Below are positions 1 to 20,100 of a stretch of DNA of 29,295 nucleotides, piece by piece. Every line of letters begins with the position of its first letter. Position 1 is the stretch's first letter. This DNA is from a virus, in the IMG/VR virus record IMGVR_UViG_3300035659_000076, positions 1-29,295 of that record. The stretch is one strand, 5' to 3'. The notes beneath the pieces were generated by a model. The model had not been told where the DNA came from, did no database searches, and saw nothing but the letters and a program-made list of their open reading frames with translations. The translations under genes and the position numbers were made by a program.

Positions 1-3000
1 GGGACGGGGGGCGTCCCTTCGCCCAGGTTCGTGAAGCTCCGGACCCGCTGATCGTACATGAACTCGTCCAGGGGGGTACCGCCAGAGTATACCCTGAAGC
101 CGGCATGCCGGTGGGGGACCTTCGTATATAGGTGGTCCGGGGAGGCGTACGCGTTGCCCTGGTTCAGAACCTGGTGGGGAGGGACTCTCCTGTCGGTGAT
201 GGTCATCTTCCCGAGAGAGTACTTGATCGGCCCCCAGACGGTCCTGGACATCTCCACAGGATCGAAACCCCCGAAGGTCACGACCTGGCGGGAGTCAGAA
301 ATCTCCTTCAAGAAGCTCGAAGAGGACGGGGGGAGCTTGAGGGAGTCATAGCTGACGGATATGGAGGCGATGCTCGAGCCGTCCAGGAAGACGGACACGC
401 CGTTGACGGGGTCCCTCACTATCCTGTAGAGGTGCGGAACGGTCCAGTCGACCTGGGTCAGGTAGTAAGAGCTGAGGAGGGACGGATCCCCGCCAGAGTA
501 TATCCCGGCGAACCTCCTGGACGGGGCCAGCGGATCGGACAGCTTGCTGTCCTTGAAGAGGGCCACGGAGCTCCAGTCGGTCACGCTGAGGGCCGTCCTC
601 AGGTCGCCGTTCGCCACCGGCGATCCGCCGGACCCGAACGAGACGGACGGTCCGGAGAACCCCTGGTTCAGCGTGACGTACGAGAACGTCCCGAGGGCGA
701 CGCCGTCGGCCAGGACGACGCAGAGGCCGGCGCCCTTCGACGTGAAGACGTTCAGGGTGTGGGGCTTTCCGTCGTCCCATGCGAACGGGAACACAGCCTT
801 CTGATCGAGGGCTCCCGTCCCAGGGTTGTACGAGAGGACGTTCAGGAAGGGGACCCCGGAGTTGTCCACCGAAGTCTGGACCTCGACGTTCTTGCCCGCA
901 GGGCCCTCGTCGACGTTCAGGACGGAGCCCGCGAAGCGCAGGTTCGTCCCGGACATGACCTGATCGCCGGCGGTGAAGGAGAGGACTCTGAGCCTGGCGT
1001 CCAGCTTCCAGTCGAACGACGGATCGAGGATCGGGGCGGTGAAGAGCGGATCGGACTCCGTATAGGACCTGAAGTCGGACGTGCTCGAGTCCGACACCCT
1101 CATCGTCCTTCCGAACATGGAGGACTGCTGTCCTCCGGACGCGGCCCACGGAGCCACGTCCTCGTCGGGAAGCGACTCGCCGAACCACGAGATCTTCGGC
1201 TCCGGGTTGGAGTCCCGGCCGAAGTACGTGCCGAGGGCGACGCCAAACTTCTCCAGGGCCGTGCCGCCGAGCATGACGAGCTTGGACGACGAGCCGGACT
1301 GCACGTCCGTGAACCTGACCCTCCCCGATCCGTCGTCGGAGGCCAGGGCGAACCCGACCGCCGCATTGATCACCGCCACAACCTGGGCTGCGGTCGTGAC
1401 CGGGGCCGGGAAGACCACCTCGATTGACTGGGAAGAGCCGATAGAGAGGATGGCCGAGTCGAAGGCCGCTATCGGGAACGGCTGCGTGCTCGTCCCGGTG
1501 ACGGTGGCCGGCGACGGCATGTGCTGAAGGAAGACGAGGTGGGTCGAGAACGTCCCGTCGTCGACGAAAAGGCCGGCGCCCTTGTTGTCGAGGCTGAACG
1601 TCCAGTACGAGACGCTGGCGGTGAACTCTATCGCCGACGTGGTCCGGACGGAGAGGATCGGCTCGGACCTCAGGTAGCCCCTATACTCGCCCGTCGTGAG
1701 CCCGAGGGCGTCGACGGTGGACCGGGGGACGCTGGACGTCGAGTCGACGACCAAGTTCGGGCCCGAAAGGATTCTCTCGGTGCCTCCCTGCCCCAGGACG
1801 ACCCACGGCGCGACCGGATCGAGCTCCGGGACAACCACAGCGTCATAGAGGACCGACTTATTGTCGGCTATCTGGTTGTAGTCGGTCGGAATGACGTTCG
1901 CCCTGATGAACGACCAGCCGCTGGTGGACGAAGAACCCCTCCATACGGCCCCGAAGAAAACCTGCTGGGCCGGGTCGATCCGGATGTCCAGGTCGGACGT
2001 CGAAGGGAGGTCCTTGTGCGCCGTCGCGGCCGCGGCCACGACCGATCCGCTGACGTACAGGGAGACGTTCCCGTCCTGGTCCCTGTGGAGCCTGTACGTC
2101 GCGACGACGGTCCAGTCGGCCGCGGAGCTGTTCCAGCTCGAAGCGTCCTCCGGGAAGCCCCTGGAGGTAAGTATCCCGACCTGCCTCACGGGACCTACCA
2201 CGTTCGTGAGGTCGTCCACGTAGTGGACGCCGGAGGCAGTCCTGTGGGCGGCGTACTTGGAGGCGGTCTCGTTGGTCAGGGCGAGTGCTGTCGGAAGGTC
2301 CTTGGCGTCCGGGGAGATCAAGGAGTTGAGGGGGTCCGCCACGACGTGGACGGTCCCGAGGCCCTTCGCGGCGTGCGAGTTGTACAAGGCCTTCATCCTG
2401 TTGGCCAGGACTATGAGGGAAGGGAGGTCCTTGGCGTCCACGACGTCCACGGCGTCCGAGGGGTCGTTCGGAAGGTGAGTACCGGTCAGCATGAGGTGAG
2501 CGCCGTACTTCGCCTTGACCGAGTTCGCGAGGGAGATTCCTGAGGAAAGGTTGTTGGCGTCGGTCTCGATGAACCCGATCAGGGCTGTGCGCGAGCCGTC
2601 CGCCACGCCGAAGCCGACGCCGGTGAACGACCCGTCGATCGTGGCCTCCACGACCCTCGCGCGGAAGGCCGCGGACACGGTGCTCGGGAAGGTGAAGTCC
2701 GCCTTGTGCGTGTAGAACGGCGGGTCCTCCCCGGGGCCGGCATGGAAGTTCGGATCCACAATGGTGAGCTCGGATCCGTCGGGGGCGAGGGAAAAGCTCC
2801 CGGTCCCCTTGAGCGTCCAAGGATCAGAAGAGTTCTCCGGGAGCGTCGTCGGGTCATACCTGATGACTGTCTCGGAGGCCGTGGTCGCGAGAACCTGATA
2901 GGCAACCCTGTTGTTCGGGACGTTCGTGAGGAGAAGGTTAGGATCGTTCAGGGACGCCGTGTACGACCTCTCGAGACCCTTGTACTTCCATCCGGTCGTG

Positions 3001-4067
3001 ACCGGGAGAGAGGGGGACCGGACGGTCCTCGGGTTGGCGGGATCCACGAGCGTGGACCTGACCTTGTACTTGTGTCCCGGGAATCCGGAAAGACCCTTCC
3101 CTCCGGCCTGGTTCAGTGCGAACTCCGGCGAGTTCAGCCTCTCTATCTGCACGGGAGGATCGTCGAGCCAAGAATAGTCGATGGTCACGGAGTCCGTGGA
3201 CGCGGGCCTCGTCGCGAGCACGACCGCACCCATGAGGCCGAACACGGCGTCCACCGGCGCCGGAGAACCGTTGACCCTGACGGTCACGTCGAGCGGGCTG
3301 TCCGCTATCTGCCCGTACCGTGGGTCGCTGAGGGTCCACGGGAACGGGCCCGTCAGCGGCCCGCTGCCCTTCACGACGGAAACGGAAGGGGCTGTAACCC
3401 TGTTCACGACGTCCCGAATGCCGTGATATATCAGGGCGTCCCTGTGGCTCTCGAAGCGGATTCGGAGCTCGTTCGCCAGAAGGACGGCCTCGGGGAACCC
3501 CGAGGCCGTCGGATAGAACACCGTGTTCGCCGTGTCCGGGATGGAGTGGACGGACGGCGCAGGGCCGACCTTGACGATGTGGCTGAGGAAGGCCGTCCTC
3601 AGGAGGTTCAGGAGTATGATGGCTGACGGCAGGTCGACCGAGTCCTCGAACGAGACTGTGTCCAGGATGTCCTGGCTCTCGTGGACCGCCGGGGGCAGGT
3701 CCGCCGTCATGACGTGAGCGTTCACCTTCGCCTTCAGGTCGTTCGCGAGCGCGACTATCTGGGCGACCGTGGGGACGACGTTCGAATAGTCGAAGCTCGC
3801 GCCCTTGAGGACGAGCCTGGTCGAGCTCCTGAAGCCGGACACGAGGAAGGTTCCGTCGTTCCTCCCGTTCGGGGATCCTGATATGGAGATGGTCCTCCCG
3901 ACGGTTGAAGTCCCGAAAGACCCGGTCGGTATGACTATCTCCGTCTCCGACACGACGCGCAGGTTCACGCCGGACAGAAGCGCGACCGGCTTCTTCACGA
4001 TCGGTCCTCTGTTCGTGTACAAGGTCCGGTCGGCGACCGACGGGAGTCCGGAAATCGGTACGGGCAT
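1..4067 (-). CDS. Giant tail fibre/adhesin-like protein with LamG-like domains (3' end cut by window)
   Basis: The reading frame is open from an ATG at 4067 to the left edge, giving at least 1355 residues with no stop, so the C-terminus is missing. Upstream of the ATG is an AGGTAGG-like purine stretch, and the gene begins 26 bases after the previous stop. Residues about 99-225 and 503-626 hold repeats of the form LANxLKxxFNxH...VHxxxD. The rest is beta-rich, with several stretches resembling concanavalin A/LamG folds: near residues 646-678 (LYVSG), 812-836 (GLFVDDG), 1100-1122 (HTLNVFTSKGAGL) and 1205-1230 (HLYRIVRDPVNGVSVFLDG). Such folds are common in phage adhesins that bind surface glycans. 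Its place at the distal end of a W-J-I-fibre order fits a receptor-binding fibre. The fibre role is inferred; the domain calls are from pattern only. Confidence 0.75.
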   Translation of the reverse strand, partial: MPVPISGLPSVADRTLYTNRGPIVKKPVALLSGVNLRVVSETEIVIPTGSFGTSTVGRTISISGSPNGRNDGTFLVSGFRSSTRLVLKGASFDYSNVVPTVAQIVALANDLKAKVNAHVMTADLPPAVHESQDILDTVSFEDSVDLPSAIILLNLLRTAFLSHIVKVGPAPSVHSIPDTANTVFYPTASGFPEAVLLANELRIRFESHRDALIYHGIRDVVNRVTAPSVSVVKGSGPLTGPFPWTLSDPRYGQIADSPLDVTVRVNGSPAPVDAVFGLMGAVVLATRPASTDSVTIDYSWLDDPPVQIERLNSPEFALNQAGGKGLSGFPGHKYKVRSTLVDPANPRTVRSPSLPVTTGWKYKGLERSYTASLNDPNLLLTNVPNNRVAYQVLATTASETVIRYDPTTLPENSSDPWTLKGTGSFSLAPDGSELTIVDPNFHAGPGEDPPFYTHKADFTFPSTVSAAFRARVVEATIDGSFTGVGFGVADGSRTALIGFIETDANNLSSGISLANSVKAKYGAHLMLTGTHLPNDPSDAVDVVDAKDLPSLIVLANRMKALYNSHAAKGLGTVHVVADPLNSLISPDAKDLPTALALTNETASKYAAHRTASGVHYVDDLTNVVGPVRQVGILTSRGFPEDASSWNSSAADWTVVATYRLHRDQDGNVSLYVSGSVVAAAATAHKDLPSTSDLDIRIDPAQQVFFGAVWRGSSSTSGWSFIRANVIPTDYNQIADNKSVLYDAVVVPELDPVAPWVVLGQGGTERILSGPNLVVDSTSSVPRSTVDALGLTTGEYRGYLRSEPILSVRTTSAIEFTASVSYWTFSLDNKGAGLFVDDGTFSTHLVFLQHMPSPATVTGTSTQPFPIAAFDSAILSIGSSQSIEVVFPAPVTTAAQVVAVINAAVGFALASDDGSGRVRFTDVQSGSSSKLVMLGGTALEKFGVALGTYFGRDSNPEPKISWFGESLPDEDVAPWAASGGQQSSMFGRTMRVSDSSTSDFRSYTESDPLFTAPILDPSFDWKLDARLRVLSFTAGDQVMSGTNLRFAGSVLNVDEGPAGKNVEVQTSVDNSGVPFLNVLSYNPGTGALDQKAVFPFAWDDGKPHTLNVFTSKGAGLCVVLADGVALGTFSYVTLNQGFSGPSVSFGSGGSPVANGDLRTALSVTDWSSVALFKDSKLSDPLAPSRRFAGIYSGGDPSLLSSYYLTQVDWTVPHLYRIVRDPVNGVSVFLDGSSIASISVSYDSLKLPPSSSSFLKEISDSRQVVTFGGFDPVEMSRTVWGPIKYSLGKMTITDRRVPPHQVLNQGNAYASPDHLYTKVPHRHAGFRVYSGGTPLDEFMYDQRVRSFTNLGEGTPPV
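2190..2560 (-). repeat. His-containing helical protein repeats, three copies (cluster B of the distal fibre gene)
   Basis: Three tandem coding repeats of about 35-45 residues occupy residues about 503-626. Each has a helix-like segment such as LANSVKAKYGAH, LANRMKALYNSH or LTNETASKYAAH, followed after 6-12 residues by a second His and an Asp (VHVVADPLN, VHYVDDLTN). Copies are joined by AxDLP linkers. They match the repeats in the neighbouring gene. Confidence 0.8.
3390..3772 (-). repeat. His-containing helical protein repeats, three copies (cluster A of the distal fibre gene)
   Basis: Three tandem copies lie near the N-terminus, residues about 99-225. Core segments are LANDLKAKVNAH, LLNLLRTAFLSH and LANELRIRFESH, each followed by a second His (AVHESQD, SVHSIPDTAN, YHGIRDVVN). 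Linkers include SVDLPS. The match to the other clusters is direct from the translation. Confidence 0.8.
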
Positions 4068-4093
4068 GCCTACCTATCGTAGAAAAGACGGAT

Positions 4094-7000
4094 TCAGGGG
4101 AAGTCGCTGGGCCTCACGGACACAAGGAGGGGTCCGGGGGTGCTGGACACTACCTCCACGAAATACTGGCCGGAGATGACCGTTGTGAACGGCATGGTGA
4201 ACAGGCCGGCCCCGCTCCCGAAGGCGACGCCCGGACCTGTGCGCGACCCGGACGTGACCCATACGAAGACGTACCCGGGGACGGAAGGCGCCCACGACGG
4301 AGTCTCCACGGTCACGTGGAGGTATGTCGCCACGGAGTCGGCCGTGAAGAACATGTGGGCGGCGTACCCGCCTGGCATGTTGTCGGAAGCCGTCCCGGTC
4401 CCGACCGCCAACCCGACAGTAGCCTCCATCAGGGTCGGGACCGGAGGCTCCGACCGGGACGGGAAGTCCACCGTGATGGTCGGGGTGTCCAGAGCGTTCT
4501 GGACGGTGACCTCGACGATATATCTGCCGCGGGTGAAGTTGTGCAGGACCTGGTTGAATGACGGACTGGCGGGGGTCGAGGCCAGGAGGTTCATTTCCTG
4601 GTCGTACAGGTATGTCTCGATCGGTAGTGCGGACGGGAAGGCCAGGATGGCGGCCACGTGGTCGTCATAAGAGTCGACGGAGAAATAGGCCGCAGGGCGT
4701 CCGTCCCCGTAATGGATGGAACTGTAGCCACCAGGACCGATCGAGAACGGCCCGACAGCGAACACGTTCGGAATAATGGGTATGAGGAACTCAGGCGGGA
4801 TGAACCTCCCGACACGGTTCCCGAACTTGTCGTGCATCCCTGCGGCGTCGGCCGAATACGGGGATGGCGACATGTTGTTGATGACGGTGGAGAGGGCGTC
4901 CGGTCCGGACCAAGACGAACGGCCGACGTTAACCGAAGGGGAGAACGATAGATCGCCCGGCCCTGGGTTCGACTGGATCATGGGCTTCGAGAAGAACCAT
5001 CGGACGGAGTCCGGCAGGAGCCTCATGCCGGACGGCGTATGGGCGACGCCGGACTTCGGGACGGCCGACGCGAGGTAAGGGGAGTACGACTTTCCGTGGA
5101 ACGAAAGACGGGACTCGGACACCCTCCTCACGTTCCCGTTCCTGACGTCCCTGAAGAAACCCTTGTTCTCCATTCGAAGGACGTACCTCTCACCTTCCTT
5201 GAACCCCTCCGCCCCGACGTCCACGGTGTCGTAGAGGGAGTGAGACGCATAGATCGCCCCGGCCGAGAGGTGTATTCCGGTATTGACGTTGTGTACGCCG
5301 AAGATCTCGGACATGGTCGACGCCAGTGAAACGGCGGAGCCGAAGTCCGAAGCGTAGGGGGTCAGGACGGGGTTCGGGTCCGGGCCGACGTGAAAAGACG
5401 TCGAGACCGAATGCTCGTCATACACGTCCCTCAGCCTGTTCAGCGCGGCGATAACGCTGGGGAGGCTCTCCGAGGGGAACTCGGAGTCCAGAAGGTAGTT
5501 CACGGTGTCCTGAACCTTGTGGCCGGCCCCGTTCGGGGGCTGGTTGTGCCACCTGTAGGCCTCCATCAGGTCGGTCGTGAGAAGGAACAAAGACCTGAGC
5601 GAAGGGACGAGGGAGACGGATGAGACCGGGATCCTCGAGCCCGACGGATCCGTCACGCTCAGCTTCGTGAGGTCCGGATAGTCCAGGCCCTTGTCGAACC
5701 GCGCAAAAAGGTGGTCCGGGGCCGTCTGGGCGGTTATGAGGACCGGCGGGGCGAACCCGGGGCTGGCTACAATGACGTCGAAGAACGAAGTGACGGAGGA
5801 CAAGTCCTCGGTCCGTACGCTGGCGCTCACCTGGTAGGAAGGGACGCTGCTGTCCGCGCCAATCTCGAGCTGAGCGAAGTACGTAAGGCTGTCGACGGGA
5901 GGGAATGAGGAGGCGGCGGACGCCCTGTTCCGGACGATGAACGGATAGGGGATGGGGAAGAAAAGAGGAAGGTGCCCGGGATACTGGGCCCTGAGTACGA
6001 GGCACGCGTTCTGGGCGTCCAGGATGGTCGTGTGGTAAGACGGGACGACCGCGGACGTATGGGCCGTGTCCGGGTACAGGTGGGTGAACTTGTCCAAACC
6101 GTGGGCCACGAACTTCGACTGAGCCTCCTCGACGAAGCGCATGGCGTCCTTCAGGGTCACCGTCCCGAGAGGGAGGAGGAGCTTTCCGGAATACGGTGCC
6201 GACGGGTTGTTCGACAGGTCAGCGACGACGTGATAGTCGGTGCTCACCTCGTGGTTCAGGACCTTGGACCGGAGCTCATCCGCGAGGACGGACGCGGTGA
6301 CGGCGTCGACGGCGTCCGACAGGACGACGGGGAAGTCGACGTCCGGGGACACGTGGACGCCGAGGGCCGTCCGGTGGGTGTCGAACTTGAGCTTCAGGTC
6401 GTTAAGCACGACGATGGCCTCCTCCAGGGTCGAAGGCCCCGGACTGAGGACCTCGTCGGCCGGATCGGCCACGAGGTGGAAGGCGGGCGAGCCCGCATGG
6501 GCGTTGAACCTGGACTTCAGGTCGGCGGCCAGGGCTATGACGGCCGTCTCGTCGGGGGCCGCCACGTACTTCGGATGAAGGAGCTGGCTTGCGACATGGG
6601 CGTTGAAGGACGACTGGAAGGCGGTGCAGAAAGTCAGAAGGTCGAAGAGGACCGGGAACGGGGAGGGGAGCGACACGAAATCGCCGACCGGATGGAACCC
6701 TTGCTGTTTTACGAGCCACTTCGACGTGTCCAGTACGTCCGGACCGAGCATCGGCCTGTTGAAGAAGACGTTCACGAGGGCCCTCCCGGGGCCGCGCGGA
6801 TCGTCCGAAAGGCTGTCGACGTACGCCCTCGTCACGTGAGCGCTGAACACGGACCCGAAGTAGTACGGGAGCGGCGGCGGATCCGCGACGGTCAGGTCCA
6901 CGATCTCGTTGGAGACGTTGTAGGACGCATCCCTCACGCCGCGGAACGACACGGCCGGCGGCCCGTACAGGAACGGGAAACCGGACAGGGAGAAGCGAAC

Positions 7001-7579
7001 GTTATTCTCCGGGATCGACGGGTCCCACGGGACGGAAGTGAGATACGACTGCTCGTATCCGGCCGGGGAGTCGGCCGGCAGGTCGACCGCCGCCAGGATC
7101 CCGGACGCCGCGGTCGTGTACGGCCCGACGGGCCTGTCGAACACGACGTCCACGAAGCCCTGACCGGCGAGGAACGCGTCGACCGCCTGGGGAGGGTCGG
7201 GCACCGAGGCGGTGAACTGGTGTCCGGATACGGAGTTCTCCCCATAATAGCTGAAGACGCCCTCGGCGGCCAGGACGTACTGGTTCGGATACGTGAGGGC
7301 CGATCCAAGGGTCAGGGACACGGACATCCTGTCAGAGTCGTCGAACGACGCCGACGTTATCGTCGGGACGTACGACGGGGGTCCGGGGAGGGACGAAATC
7401 GAGTACGACCCGGGGGACAGGGCGGAGTCGTCCACCGGGTTGGAGAAGAAGACTCTGACGGACCTTCGGCCGACGACAGCCGCCGACATCGTGAAGGACG
7501 GGCTCGGGACGTTCGTCGGAGTGAAGGTGAGACGGCCGAGGACGAGGTCCGACTGGGACGAGTTCGGGACGTACGTCAT
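4094..7579 (-). CDS. Giant fibre/adhesin-like protein with Ig-like domains and His-repeat modules (1161 aa)
   Basis: The protein starts at an ATG two bases after the TAG of the gpI-like gene, with a GGGGA stretch upstream. Residues about 30-300 resemble tandem bacterial Ig-like (Big_5/SwmB-type) domains: VRVFFSNPVDDSALSPGSY, VDVVFDRPV and VNVFFNRPM recur in the position where such domains have V.V.F..PV. Residues about 309-541 and 662-788 hold the LxxDLKxxFNAH...HxxxD repeats also seen in the next gene. The C-terminal 250 residues include two beta domains ending in similar strands (RYIVEVTVQN, QYFVEVVSS), like pre-peptidase-type jelly-rolls. By position this is the P2 gpH-like slot, so a fibre or fibre connector is likely. 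No enzyme motif was seen. Confidence 0.8.
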   Translation of the reverse strand: MTYVPNSSQSDLVLGRLTFTPTNVPSPSFTMSAAVVGRRSVRVFFSNPVDDSALSPGSYSISSLPGPPSYVPTITSASFDDSDRMSVSLTLGSALTYPNQYVLAAEGVFSYYGENSVSGHQFTASVPDPPQAVDAFLAGQGFVDVVFDRPVGPYTTAASGILAAVDLPADSPAGYEQSYLTSVPWDPSIPENNVRFSLSGFPFLYGPPAVSFRGVRDASYNVSNEIVDLTVADPPPLPYYFGSVFSAHVTRAYVDSLSDDPRGPGRALVNVFFNRPMLGPDVLDTSKWLVKQQGFHPVGDFVSLPSPFPVLFDLLTFCTAFQSSFNAHVASQLLHPKYVAAPDETAVIALAADLKSRFNAHAGSPAFHLVADPADEVLSPGPSTLEEAIVVLNDLKLKFDTHRTALGVHVSPDVDFPVVLSDAVDAVTASVLADELRSKVLNHEVSTDYHVVADLSNNPSAPYSGKLLLPLGTVTLKDAMRFVEEAQSKFVAHGLDKFTHLYPDTAHTSAVVPSYHTTILDAQNACLVLRAQYPGHLPLFFPIPYPFIVRNRASAASSFPPVDSLTYFAQLEIGADSSVPSYQVSASVRTEDLSSVTSFFDVIVASPGFAPPVLITAQTAPDHLFARFDKGLDYPDLTKLSVTDPSGSRIPVSSVSLVPSLRSLFLLTTDLMEAYRWHNQPPNGAGHKVQDTVNYLLDSEFPSESLPSVIAALNRLRDVYDEHSVSTSFHVGPDPNPVLTPYASDFGSAVSLASTMSEIFGVHNVNTGIHLSAGAIYASHSLYDTVDVGAEGFKEGERYVLRMENKGFFRDVRNGNVRRVSESRLSFHGKSYSPYLASAVPKSGVAHTPSGMRLLPDSVRWFFSKPMIQSNPGPGDLSFSPSVNVGRSSWSGPDALSTVINNMSPSPYSADAAGMHDKFGNRVGRFIPPEFLIPIIPNVFAVGPFSIGPGGYSSIHYGDGRPAAYFSVDSYDDHVAAILAFPSALPIETYLYDQEMNLLASTPASPSFNQVLHNFTRGRYIVEVTVQNALDTPTITVDFPSRSEPPVPTLMEATVGLAVGTGTASDNMPGGYAAHMFFTADSVATYLHVTVETPSWAPSVPGYVFVWVTSGSRTGPGVAFGSGAGLFTMPFTTVISGQYFVEVVSSTPGPLLVSVRPSDFP
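5215..5593 (-). repeat. His-containing helical protein repeats, three copies (cluster B of the proximal fibre gene)
   Basis: Residues about 662-788 hold three copies: LLTTDLMEAYRWHNQ with GHKVQD; AALNRLRDVYDEH with FHVGPDPNPV; and LASTMSEIFGVH with IHLSAG. They are more divergent than cluster A, but the spacing of helix, first His and second His is kept. Confidence 0.7.
5955..6651 (-). repeat. His-containing helical protein repeats, about five copies (cluster A of the proximal fibre gene)
   Basis: Residues about 309-541 hold about five recognisable copies plus one degenerate one. Cores are AFQSSFNAH, LAADLKSRFNAH, VLNDLKLKFDTH, LADELRSKVLNH and VEEAQSKFVAH. Each is followed by a second His and usually an acidic residue (FHLVADPAD, VHVSPDVD, YHVVADLSN, THLYPDTAH). 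Confidence 0.8.
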
Positions 7580-11850: not shown

Positions 11851-11911
11851 CCCGGATAAACGGGCCCTCAGGCCGAGGGGCTGGAAGAAGACCGGAGATG
11901 CTTTATCCGGG
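11851..11911. repeat. 10-bp perfect inverted repeat around the 3' end of the homing endonuclease gene
   Basis: CCCGGATAAA at 11851-11860 is the exact reverse complement of TTTATCCGGG at 11902-11911, separated by 41 bases. Between them is a smaller hairpin, CCCTC-AGGCC-GAGGG (11865-11879), that spans the endonuclease stop codon at 11868-11870. The arms lie in the J/endonuclease spacer and in the last codons of the endonuclease. It could be a weak terminator or processing structure; no long T-run follows. Confidence 0.6.
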
Positions 11912-12707
11912 CAATGCGGAGCCTCACACACACCTTGCACTGGAAGCGAACTACCCCGCCGTTCATCGAACGATAAGTTTCGCTGATAGGTACAAGGCCA
12001 TGAACAGAGCACTTCTGGTGAGTCATGGTCCGGGTCTTCTCTCGTGCCTCCATGGACCTGAGCGCCCTGGCGGCCTTCATTCGAGGGCTCCTCCGGATAG
12101 ACTCGGACATCTTCGCGACATGCTCCGGACCGAGTTTCCTTCCGCGATGCGCGGACCTTATCCTCTCACACGTCTCCGGAGTGTGGGACTTCCCGCTAAA
12201 GGCTGTCGCCATTCGGGCCCTGACTTCCGGCCTTGAAGAGATCTCCCTGTTGATAGCGGCCTTCCGCTCACAGTATTCGAGGGCGCTTTGAGCCTGCCGG
12301 ATCTTGGACCGGACCTCCGGGTCGTTGAAGGTGGCCCGGGCGGCCTCCGTACATCTCTTCCGATAGGCGGGATCGTCCCACGGATTTTTCCGAATCAGAT
12401 GAGGTGCGTGAGCTCCGCCCTTCGTCAGGTTGAAACCCTTCTCCGGGTTCCTCGTGTCGTAGAGCTCGATCCAGCACTTCTCTGCGAGGTTCGCCACTTC
12501 AAGATCGGTGCAGACCTCGAGGATCTCGTGCGAGAAGGCCTCAGGCCCGTATTTCCGGATGGCGTTCGGGAAGTGCCATCGGCCGCCCTTCGAAGATCTG
12601 GATTTCGAAACGTGTTGGTTCCACCGTTTCAACATCGTCTGGACCGTAAGTCCTACATATCGGCGACCAGAACTGACGTGCGTGTGGCAGTAGATCGTCC
12701 AAACCAT
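11868..12707 (-). CDS. Free-standing GIY-YIG homing endonuclease with NUMOD3-like repeats (279 aa)
   Basis: The N-terminal 98 residues form a GIY-YIG nuclease: TIY at 4-6, YVG at 17-19, Arg28 in LKRWNQH, catalytic Glu76 in LAEKCWIELY, and GFNLTKGG at 91-98. Residues 170-208 contain NUMOD3-type DNA-binding motifs (GKSHTPETCERIRSAHRG, then LGPEHVAKMSESIRR). An additional basic repeat region lies at 110-165 (DDPAYRKR, NDPEVRSK, RPEVRARM). The C-terminus has C233-x2-H236 and C257-x2-C260, a likely zinc site. Such enzymes cut a target allele so that their gene is copied in. Both flanking genes appear complete, so this is not inside an intron. It uses more CGN arginine codons and more A/T-ending codons than its neighbours, consistent with separate acquisition. 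No good Shine-Dalgarno is visible. Confidence 0.92.
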   Translation of the reverse strand: MVWTIYCHTHVSSGRRYVGLTVQTMLKRWNQHVSKSRSSKGGRWHFPNAIRKYGPEAFSHEILEVCTDLEVANLAEKCWIELYDTRNPEKGFNLTKGGAHAPHLIRKNPWDDPAYRKRCTEAARATFNDPEVRSKIRQAQSALEYCERKAAINREISSRPEVRARMATAFSGKSHTPETCERIRSAHRGRKLGPEHVAKMSESIRRSPRMKAARALRSMEAREKTRTMTHQKCSVHGLVPISETYRSMNGGVVRFQCKVCVRLRIARIKHLRSSSSPSA

Positions 12708-17184: not shown

Positions 17185-20100
17185 AGCTGGCTCGCGATCA
17201 GCAGCTTCTGCTGATCGGCCACTATCTTCGCCGTGTTCTCCACCCTCCTTTGTTGGGCCAGGACCAGCTGCGTCAGTGTCCCGTTCTTCTTGTCCGTCCT
17301 CTGCTGTATCCATAGGAACCTCGTGTCGTAGAGCTTGTCGTCCAGGCCCAGTAGCCCGCCGATCTTCTTTATGAAAGACGCGACGTCGTTCTGGCGTGCG
17401 GTCACGGTCGCCTGCCTGGCCGCAACCCCGGCGAGGCCGATAGACCCGGCCCATACGGCCGTCACGCCGTAGAATACCGTCGTCTTGGTGAGGAACTCAG
17501 TGGCGAACTTGAACTCCTTCTCGGTGAGGAAAGACCAAGGGGATATTACCATGTACGGGTACGGACCGCCGACCGGGAGGGACGGATAGGGGGAGGAAGG
17601 ATCCACCGTCAGCGTGTGGGCAGTGACCGACGCGACGTTGTACAGGCCGGTCCCGGGCCCTGACGTCACGTAAAGGAGGCTCGAGGACGTGACGGGCGGG
17701 ACGGCCGTCGCGAAGTTCACGGACGGATCCGTGAGGACGTCCGGGACCAGGGCGTTGCCCGTGCCGGAGGCCTGCTGTTGCCCGAAGCCCCGGATCACGG
17801 AGTCGATGCTCTTGAGCTCCGAGTCCACCGGGCCTATCAGGGCTGGAGGTACGGGCGCGACGGCCAGGTTGGTCCCGACCACGGCGAGCTCCGACGCGAC
17901 GATGGACGTGATCTGGCCGTACGTGGAGGCGATGAAGATGTCGCTACCGACGAGGTCCGGGACCGGGAACGCGACGGACACCGTGAAGGACGTCACGGAT
18001 ATGGAGGCGAGGACCGTCCGGACGGCGCCGGCGTTCGGGCCGGCGAGGAACTGGACCTGGCTCCCGACCACGTACGGGACCGGGACGGCGAGGGTCACCG
18101 TCACCAGGTCGACCTGCACCTTCGCGTTCCCGATCCTGGTGAGGGCGTCCTGCTCCGCGGTCAGGAGGAGGGACTCGGACGAGGCAAGCCTGCTGAGGGG
18201 CGGGATGGAGATCCTTCCGTCGTCGCACAGCTCGGAGCCGTCGAGCGCGGGGATCCTCTTCGGCGCAGTCTCCGAGTTCCCGTACGTCACGGAGCAGTCC
18301 ACGAGCTCGTTCCCCGAGACGGGGACGGACATGGTCCCGATCAGAGGGAGCGGGAAGTAGTTGTTGTAGATCTGGCCGGTCTCCGGATCGATCCTCATGT
18401 CGCGGCCGGGCGTATAGAAGTGGTTGGCGGCGACGGACGAGTCCGTCGTGTCCTGGACAAGCCCGCCTGTCTGTCCGGAGTACGTCACGCCGGAGACCGT
18501 GACCGTGAAGGGCCCGGAGCCCGTGACGGACGAGACTGCCGTCGAGACAACGTTGAACGGCGACCCGTCGGGGTTGTACACGAACACCTTCTGGCCGGCG
18601 GAGAACCCGGGGACGAGGGTCTTCGGATCCCCGTTCTTGGCGATCACGAAGCTCGTGCTTCCGCCGGACGCCGCGGATGAGGTGAACAGGGAGGCCGCCC
18701 TCGAGGAGGTCATCGTGCTCACGGACGTGATGTTCTCAATCCCGAGGCTCCCGAGGGTCTTGTTATAGTCGATTATCGGCGCCACCTTGTTGTTCAGGGC
18801 CGCTGTCACGAACGGATCGACCGTCGGGAATATCCTGGAGAGGCTGTTCGGCTCGTACATGTACGAGTAGAACGGGGTGGCTCCGAAGATGAACGGGTTC
18901 AGGCTCACGAGCGTCACGTAGTCGAAGAGCTTGACCCGGTCGTCCACGTCGTTCGTGATGGACGGGTAGTCGCTGACGGTGTGGGTCTGGTCGTCGTACC
19001 GGAACCTCCCGAACTTCCCTCCTACCACCCTCCCGTCCAGGTCCGTAAGGACGTCCTCGTACTGGTTCACCAGGTCGTTGTAGAACTTGAGGAGCCTCCT
19101 CACAACGACGTCCACATTCCCTATGTGCTGCTCGTCGAAGTACAGGCTGGGGGAGCCCTGGTCCTTGGTCCTGAGGGCGGACCTGCTGGCGGTGTTCGGA
19201 CCGGAGACGCCGCTCGAGGCCGACTTCTTCAGTTCGTCCACGACCTCGGGGATGAAGGACACGATGGTCTGGGTTCTGTAGAAGAACGTGTCCGGCGAGT
19301 ACAGGCTGTACGTGGCGGCGAGCTTCTGGCCCTGAAGGCCGTTGGTCACTCCCGGAGCAATGCCGCGAGCGTAGTTGAACACGAAGGACGTCCCGACGGG
19401 CTGCGTCGTCCTGGCCACGTAGAACGCGTAAAGGGAGCTGCCGAACGCGACCTGGAAGTTGACCTTCACAATGCCGCCCTCGGCCACGGTGAAGTCGAGG
19501 TCCTTCGTCAGCGGGCGCGGTGACGATCCGTCGAGGAACAGGGAGAACGGGTATCCGACGTGGGCCGGCCTCGACGTGGAGAAGTCGGTACCGGGGTTCA
19601 GGACCGGCCTCACGGTTCTCGTGACGGACGGGATGATGTAGTTCCTGGCCGTCTTCACGGCCATGGTGACGTTCGTCCTGTTCGAGGCCTGGTCGTAGAC
19701 GGCCGACAGGGCGAGGAACGGATCTCCGTCGAGCGTGACGACGGTCCCGCCCCTGTACGGGGCTACGCCCTGGACGGAGAGGGTGGACGATCCCTTCGGG
19801 ACGACGTCGACCGGGCTCGTCTCCGGGGACGAGTAGCTGAGGGTTACGGGGCCGCTCACCTTCAGGGGGGCGAACCCTGTGTCGACCTCCGGGACGGGGT
19901 CGAAGGTGACGGACGTCGAGTCGGAGGACGGGTCGTAGACCACGGCGCTCACGAGGAACATGTCCTTTCCGTCCGAGAGGAAGGCCGATCCGGCAGACAC
20001 GACGTTGGTGACGTTCCCGTTGAACGTGGAGGTGGCCTGCCCGGCCACGATCTGGGCGCGGTCCAGGTCTATCGGGCTTCCGGTGAGCGTGAAGAGCTGG

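Follow-up and report, generated by a model that had tools for sequence, protein, structure and literature searches.

Virion proteins of tailed phages carry promiscuous Ig-like domains, including additional domains of the tail sheath, and these have been proposed to aid adhesion or stability (PMC9230969). Of the extra domains known from phage tail sheaths, most belong to the Ig-like type, whose function is still to be settled (PMC9230969). Recurrent paired His residues have been described in another setting, where HxH sites bind iron in trimeric phage fibres and spikes of the T4 gp37 type (PMC11705849).

Here, we analyzed a helical repeat family with a conserved His/His/Asp triad. It was found in a stretch of viral DNA of 29,295 bases (the window), which is the whole of virus record IMGVR_UViG_3300035659_000076 and evidently a fragment of a longer genome. 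We read the repeats as the units of a module that occurs promiscuously on the virion surface of large tailed phages, arranged in three-unit helical blocks that are likely metal-stapled, and we put the probability of this reading at roughly 0.6.

The repeat locus

The likely genes of the window are all on the minus strand. In the order of transcription, they encode proteins of 1171, 854, 192 and 1758 aa, followed by proteins of 754, 256 and 393 aa and a homing endonuclease, and lastly a Baseplate_J protein (Pfam E 2e-6), a ~270 aa protein, and the two repeat proteins of 1161 aa and 1355+ aa. The homing endonuclease gene (11868-12707, minus strand; GIY-YIG type by PHROG) lies between the Baseplate_J and 393 aa genes. 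LR745208, a 485-kb uncultured phage record, shares with the window the order of the genes for the 393-, J-, 270- and 1355-type proteins. There, the 270 aa-type and 1355-type proteins are fused into one protein of 1763 aa (L003, 18384-23675), with no 1161-type gene between them, and a gene that looks similar to the homing endonuclease gene is located a little upstream of the corresponding genes. The repeat locus belongs to the baseplate region of a giant phage; the giant phages with this repeat are known from sequence alone. The two proteins had originally been predicted to be giant fibre proteins. Both are virion proteins encoded at a baseplate locus, and possibly fibres.

The repeats span positions 2190-6651 on the minus strand. 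As listed in Table 1, 13 clear and two degenerate units (15 in total) form four clusters of 3, 3, 6 and 3, which agrees with the prediction of about 14 copies in four clusters. Six units belong to the 1355+ aa protein, and seven clear plus two degenerate ones to the 1161 aa protein. The clear units show a helix-type stretch, then H-x(6-10)-H, and mostly then x3-D; the His pair and the Asp had been correctly described. An AxDLP linker, also part of the predicted pattern, was seen in some copies (SVDLP, and AKDLP twice) and not in the rest. Leave-one-out HMMs recovered 10 of 14 copies at E < 1e-6, and the whole proteins scored 204 and 244 bits compared to 11 bits for the best of 2000 shuffles. 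Therefore, chance is excluded as the source of the repeats.

Table 1. Coordinates of the repeat proteins, repeat units and related features in the window
Feature	Positions	Strand	Remarks
1355+ aa virion protein	3..4067	-	runs past the window edge; two three-unit blocks; 44-54% identity over aa 1-720 to 1726-2641 aa proteins of large phage contigs
Block 1 unit 1	3648..3758	-	aa 104-140; H118, H129, D133
Block 1 unit 2	3510..3623	-	aa 149-186; H163, H174, D178
Block 1 unit 3	3387..3488	-	aa 194-227; H208, H215, D219
Jelly-roll (ConA/LamG-like) domain	2064..2753	-	~aa 439-668; holds block 2 between two strands
Block 2 unit 1	2439..2540	-	aa 510-543; H524, H531, D535
Block 2 unit 2	2310..2417	-	aa 551-586; H565, H574, D578
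Block 2 unit 3	2190..2291	-	aa 593-626; H608, H615, D619
1161 aa virion protein	4094..7579	-	six-unit cluster and three-unit cluster
Unit, 1161 aa protein	6554..6643	-	aa 313-342
Unit, 1161 aa protein	6440..6541	-	aa 347-380
Unit, 1161 aa protein	6317..6418	-	aa 388-421
Unit, 1161 aa protein	6194..6295	-	aa 429-462
Unit, 1161 aa protein	6044..6145	-	aa 479-512
Degenerate unit, 1161 aa protein	5906..6016	-	aa 522-558; without second His
Degenerate unit, 1161 aa protein	5489..5590	-	aa 664-697; retains H-x7-H-x3-D; HMM ~0 bits; several orthologues have a three-unit cluster here
Unit, 1161 aa protein	5354..5455	-	aa 709-742
Unit, 1161 aa protein	5234..5335	-	aa 749-782
Empty site, 1758 aa protein	18663..18686	-	aa 1258-1265; orthologue of the 393-kb relative has six units between matching positions 1258 and 1265

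Two further sequence features were observed in the 1355+ aa protein gene. The 28 bases at 3483-3510 border on unit 3 of block 1 and are a 93% match to their own reverse complement. At ~aa 255-300, a beta-type stretch 'DVTVRVNGSPAPVDAVFGLMGAVVL...VTIDYSW' resembles, by eye only, the stretches 'VSVSVNGQQVVVAGVDGPNGIVSL...VVINYFF' of a sheath protein (L024); given this likeness, virion genes may share more than one module.

Copy number and conservation in relatives

A repeat consensus searched against IMG/VR identified eight loci, two of them with both repeat genes, and a second consensus identified 26 loci, further orthologues among them. Nine loci, on contigs of 69 to 436 kb, came from a scan with the orthologue alignment, and the whole 1161 aa protein, scanned against viruses, gave no match. 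Orthologues in IMG/VR were found on 11 other contigs of 69-436 kb. Those of the 1355+ aa protein extend several hundred to ~1300 residues past the point of the window edge, where they carry 2 to 19 additional units.

Total copies per orthologue ranged from 8 to 25, with the variation mostly C-terminal. Three-unit clusters accounted for 52 of 90, many of these being orthologous, and the C-terminal clusters of orthologues had 2, 4, 5, 10, 13 or 17 units, which are not multiples of three. Multiples of three are thus a tendency only, to which the C-terminal clusters are exceptions. A spacer whose copy number sets the length of a fibre, one of the functions originally suggested, would be consistent with this range, and the C-terminal variation leaves it some room. 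However, all high-identity orthologues keep exactly three units in each of blocks 1 and 2, and the triad is conserved far beyond what a spacer needs. Moreover, as described below, the units are predicted to be folded, blocks of three are preferred, and the arrays break into other domains, the sheath included. We consider a flexible spacer improbable.

Over 217 units, the motif was N-x8-H-x6-H-x3-D, with the first His at 100%, the second at 99% and the Asp at 98%, followed by Asn (85%) and Leu (81%); no other position exceeded 85%. These units were chosen with a profile, which inflates the percentages, whereas the figures from 12 orthologues are free of that bias. Across aa 1-720 of those 12, each of the 12 His in blocks 1 and 2 was invariant and the Asp of each unit was kept in 11 or 12 of the 12, while the remaining unit positions averaged 51-61%. 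Only one of the other five His of the window sequence, those outside the triads, was identical across the 12 orthologues. The original claim of a family common to both proteins with conserved His and Asp residues was thus borne out. One of these 12, a divergent and visibly AT-rich orthologue (L029, 4005-9857), retains every His of the two blocks at only 29% identity.

The spacing H-x6-H was found in 175 of the 217 units and was longer in nearly all others, often 10 or 14. In the sheath of a 393-kb contig (L034, aa ~925-1010), ~85 residues are inserted between both His of one unit. Because the loop between the His residues varies in this way, these two residues probably close off a loop at its base. 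More residues are inserted between units 3 and 4 of the same sheath, giving modules nested in modules.

Predicted structure

AlphaFold2 modelled aa 1-720 of the 1355+ aa protein from 12 sequences (mean pLDDT 73, pTM 0.47; aa 301-399 unmodelled). Helices were predicted at aa 97-120, 146-164 and 191-209 and at 507-525, 548-566 and 591-609, with local pLDDT in the unit helices mostly ~90-97, and five of the six ended one residue past the first His. A model of a six-unit sheath array from 17 sequences (mean pLDDT 81, pTM 0.53) likewise showed six helices; confidence dropped between the third unit and the fourth. On these models, one helix per unit is very probable. The three-unit block is likely to be the folding unit.

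The first His was positioned 32 degrees from the hydrophobic moment of the unit helix, on the buried face. This position and the invariance of the triad fit metal binding, to which we give about an even chance. A purely structural hydrogen-bond network, in which the His residues cap the C-terminus of the helix and are bonded to the Asp without a metal, is a less probable explanation. The triad at the helix end, with the first His at that end, is a plausible capping box, and no measurement demands metal. Helix-capping residues, however, tolerate Asn, Ser or Gln, and two His residues at 99-100% down to 29% overall identity exceed what is expected of capping residues.

Block 2 was predicted to interrupt a beta sandwich. 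The strands of the jelly roll run at aa 464-475, 481-489 and 493-502, then follow the three helices, and then strands at 627-633, 645-649 and 656-662, such that the block breaks the sandwich between strands 493-502 and 627-633. Foldseek matched this jelly roll to a sialidase lectin domain with a probability of 1.00 but an E-value of 3e-3, and the alignment was ~125 columns longer than the target. Excising block 2 raised the alignment score against the jelly roll of LR745208 from 88 to 104-121, whereas control excisions gave 88. By this comparison, the insertion site lies near aa 502-514 to 619-627, not to single-residue precision.

Insertion into loops implies that the chain ends of a block are probably near each other. 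Since each unit has a helix and a long return coil, blocks of three are preferred, and insertion occurs in loops, we infer a three-by-three packing of parallel helices.

Arrays in tail sheaths and other proteins

In the 273-kb and 393-kb contigs that carry orthologues, a separate locus encodes a tail sheath of 1684 and 1862 aa, respectively, with six units each; the sheath of phage G has 579 aa. The array-bearing sheath is homologous to annotated sheaths, and its C-terminal domain matched phrog_2839 at aa 1337-1686 (E 4.5e-23), with Pfam PF17482 below its cut-off. Sheath arrays of relatives had 3, 3, 6, 6, 6 and 9 units.

The occurrence in the sheath bears on the other function originally suggested, a repeated trimer contact in which units pair among three fibre chains like the HxH sites of T4 gp37-type fibres. 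The repeat is a His-rich motif of tail proteins, and trimeric fibres are known to carry HxH iron sites (PMC11705849). However, the spacing is H-x6-H and not H-x-H, the folds in which the units lie are those of a jelly roll and a sheath, the latter being no trimer of parallel chains, and the units are predicted confidently within one chain. A trimer contact is therefore very improbable.

In four large contigs searched, the family was confined to three or four virion proteins. These were the sheath, the 1161- and 1355-type proteins and, in a single genome, one further host; two of the frames, of 1566 and 1574 aa, were identified as sheaths from their flanks. This fourth host, in the 393-kb relative, is the orthologue of the 1758 aa protein of the window (51% identical) and has six units where the window has an empty site (Table 1). 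No repeat was found in the 1758-type protein of three other large contigs, so that the gain of an array in one lineage is the simpler reading. The array of the 1758-type protein was nearest to the sheath arrays of relatives (43% over 254 aa), not to those of its own genome, as exchange from gene to gene would give. In contrast, each array of the window was nearest to its own orthologues. The sharing between the two window genes had been attributed to duplication or exchange; such an event must be old for the window arrays, while the 1758-type array conforms to exchange.

The module also occurs outside this group. A contig of Polyangium sp., evidently at a prophage locus, encodes a stand-alone three-unit protein of 172 aa directly behind the major head gene and before the neck and sheath genes, and a 77-kb phage genome encodes a similar protein of 178 aa between the portal and sheath genes. 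Stand-alone units behind the head gene suggest capsid decoration. Three units were also present inside a protein matching an internal-virion PHROG and in several proteins of 280-320 aa. A 47-kb contig (L031) has three separate genes with one three-unit block each. Single-unit proteins of archaeal and similar contigs (L013, L039-L043) fitted weakly and were left out as evidence.

Conceivably, the block itself might act as an adhesin for a sugar on the host surface or for a metal-siderophore receptor; roles of this kind have been proposed for Ig-like domains of phages or for fibres that bear iron. The host proteins of virion-surface type, the neighbouring lectin-type jelly roll and the promiscuous spread are consistent with this. 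However, the conserved residues are predicted at a buried face and at the helix end, not on a binding surface, and direct binding by the block appears rather unlikely.

Database searches

Against GenBank phages, tblastn with the 1161 aa protein or the repeat consensus gave no match, and the sole match overall was LR745208, outside the repeats of the 1355 aa protein. Searches of LR745208, Tunturi_5 and phage G detected no repeat units. A PDB sequence search returned chance-level matches only (dehydrogenase, nucleoporin, triosephosphate isomerase), and no Pfam or NCBIfam family exceeded its cut-off, with scattered sub-threshold matches only. Foldseek with the six-unit array gave a best PDB match of E 2.3 (probability 0.02) and a best BFVD match of E 2.1 (probability 0.05), although a flexible model can mask a match to a single block.

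Several arrays weakly matched the profile of PHROG 6994, 'head fiber protein' (best 1e-4); PHROG 6994 against the whole records gave no match, and a control was equally silent. Kinship to the head fibre protein gp8.5 of phi29 was rejected: hhalign gave a probability of 1.2%, the repeat HMM found zero units, and the 245 aa stretch examined contained no His.

Discussion

That the repeats form one family and that it is mobile is nearly certain, and the surface position of the arrays is quite probable, judging from the host proteins. Each unit of ~41 residues would consist of an amphipathic helix of 19-20 residues and a long return coil. An essentially invariant His would end the helix, and the coil would provide the second His, usually seven residues on, and the Asp four further. 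Three units would usually make one block with its chain ends probably close together, which could be inserted into a loop of a beta domain while leaving the host protein undisturbed. The probable role of the triad is to bind a metal ion (Zn, Fe or Ni), either within one unit or common to three units at one end of the block, and this metal would stand in for a larger hydrophobic core. The blocks would decorate the tail sheath and proteins of the baseplate region, and the stand-alone proteins probably the capsid. They would have spread among virion genes by insertion, with growth tending to steps of three, and their role may be virion stability or weak contact with the host surface.

A more specific proposal, which we hold tentatively and at somewhat less than even odds, is a new metal-stapled mini-domain. 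Here, three single-chain helix-coil units would mimic a segment of a trimeric fibre, with the metal bound via H-x6-H-x3-D. The block would have reached genes for the sheath, the baseplate region and capsid decoration in giant phages and in smaller ones, growing in steps of three.

This helical family has no entry in Pfam or NCBIfam, gave no fold match here and has a strikingly rigid triad; it gives the impression of a mobile surface module that has not been described before. Close relatives offer both an empty and a filled site, so that the question of what such additional domains do for giant phages becomes testable. One module can be compared across sheath, baseplate and capsid settings, and its putative metal is directly measurable.

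Among known systems, the likeness to the phi29 head fibre gp8.5 and PHROG 6994 consists of the weak profile matches and of the position of stand-alone relatives next to a capsid gene. The sheaths of Bacillus phage G, Tunturiibacter phage Tunturi_5 and uncultured LR745208 have the same core as the array-bearing sheath, and none has the repeat. Iron-binding fibres share with the module recurrent paired His in tail proteins; however, their sites are H-x-H in a trimer (PMC11705849), whereas the module has H-x6-H-x3-D after a helix, single-chain units and a putative metal. In those fibres, six His on the threefold axis hold an octahedral metal, and three units with two His each would, as a conjecture, also supply six. 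Phage Ig-like domains are likewise additions, off the conserved core, to the sheath, tail and capsid proteins that large phages encode (PMC9230969). They are mostly beta sandwiches (PMC9230969), whereas the module is helical, with three-unit blocks and an invariant His/His/Asp; its units are predicted to be helical and had no Pfam match above cut-off. As with Ig-like domains, the module is spread across unrelated virion proteins and phages (sheath, 1355-, 1161- and 1758-type proteins, an internal-virion PHROG protein and a stand-alone capsid neighbour). The module is thus no member of the Ig-like domains but resembles them in behaviour.
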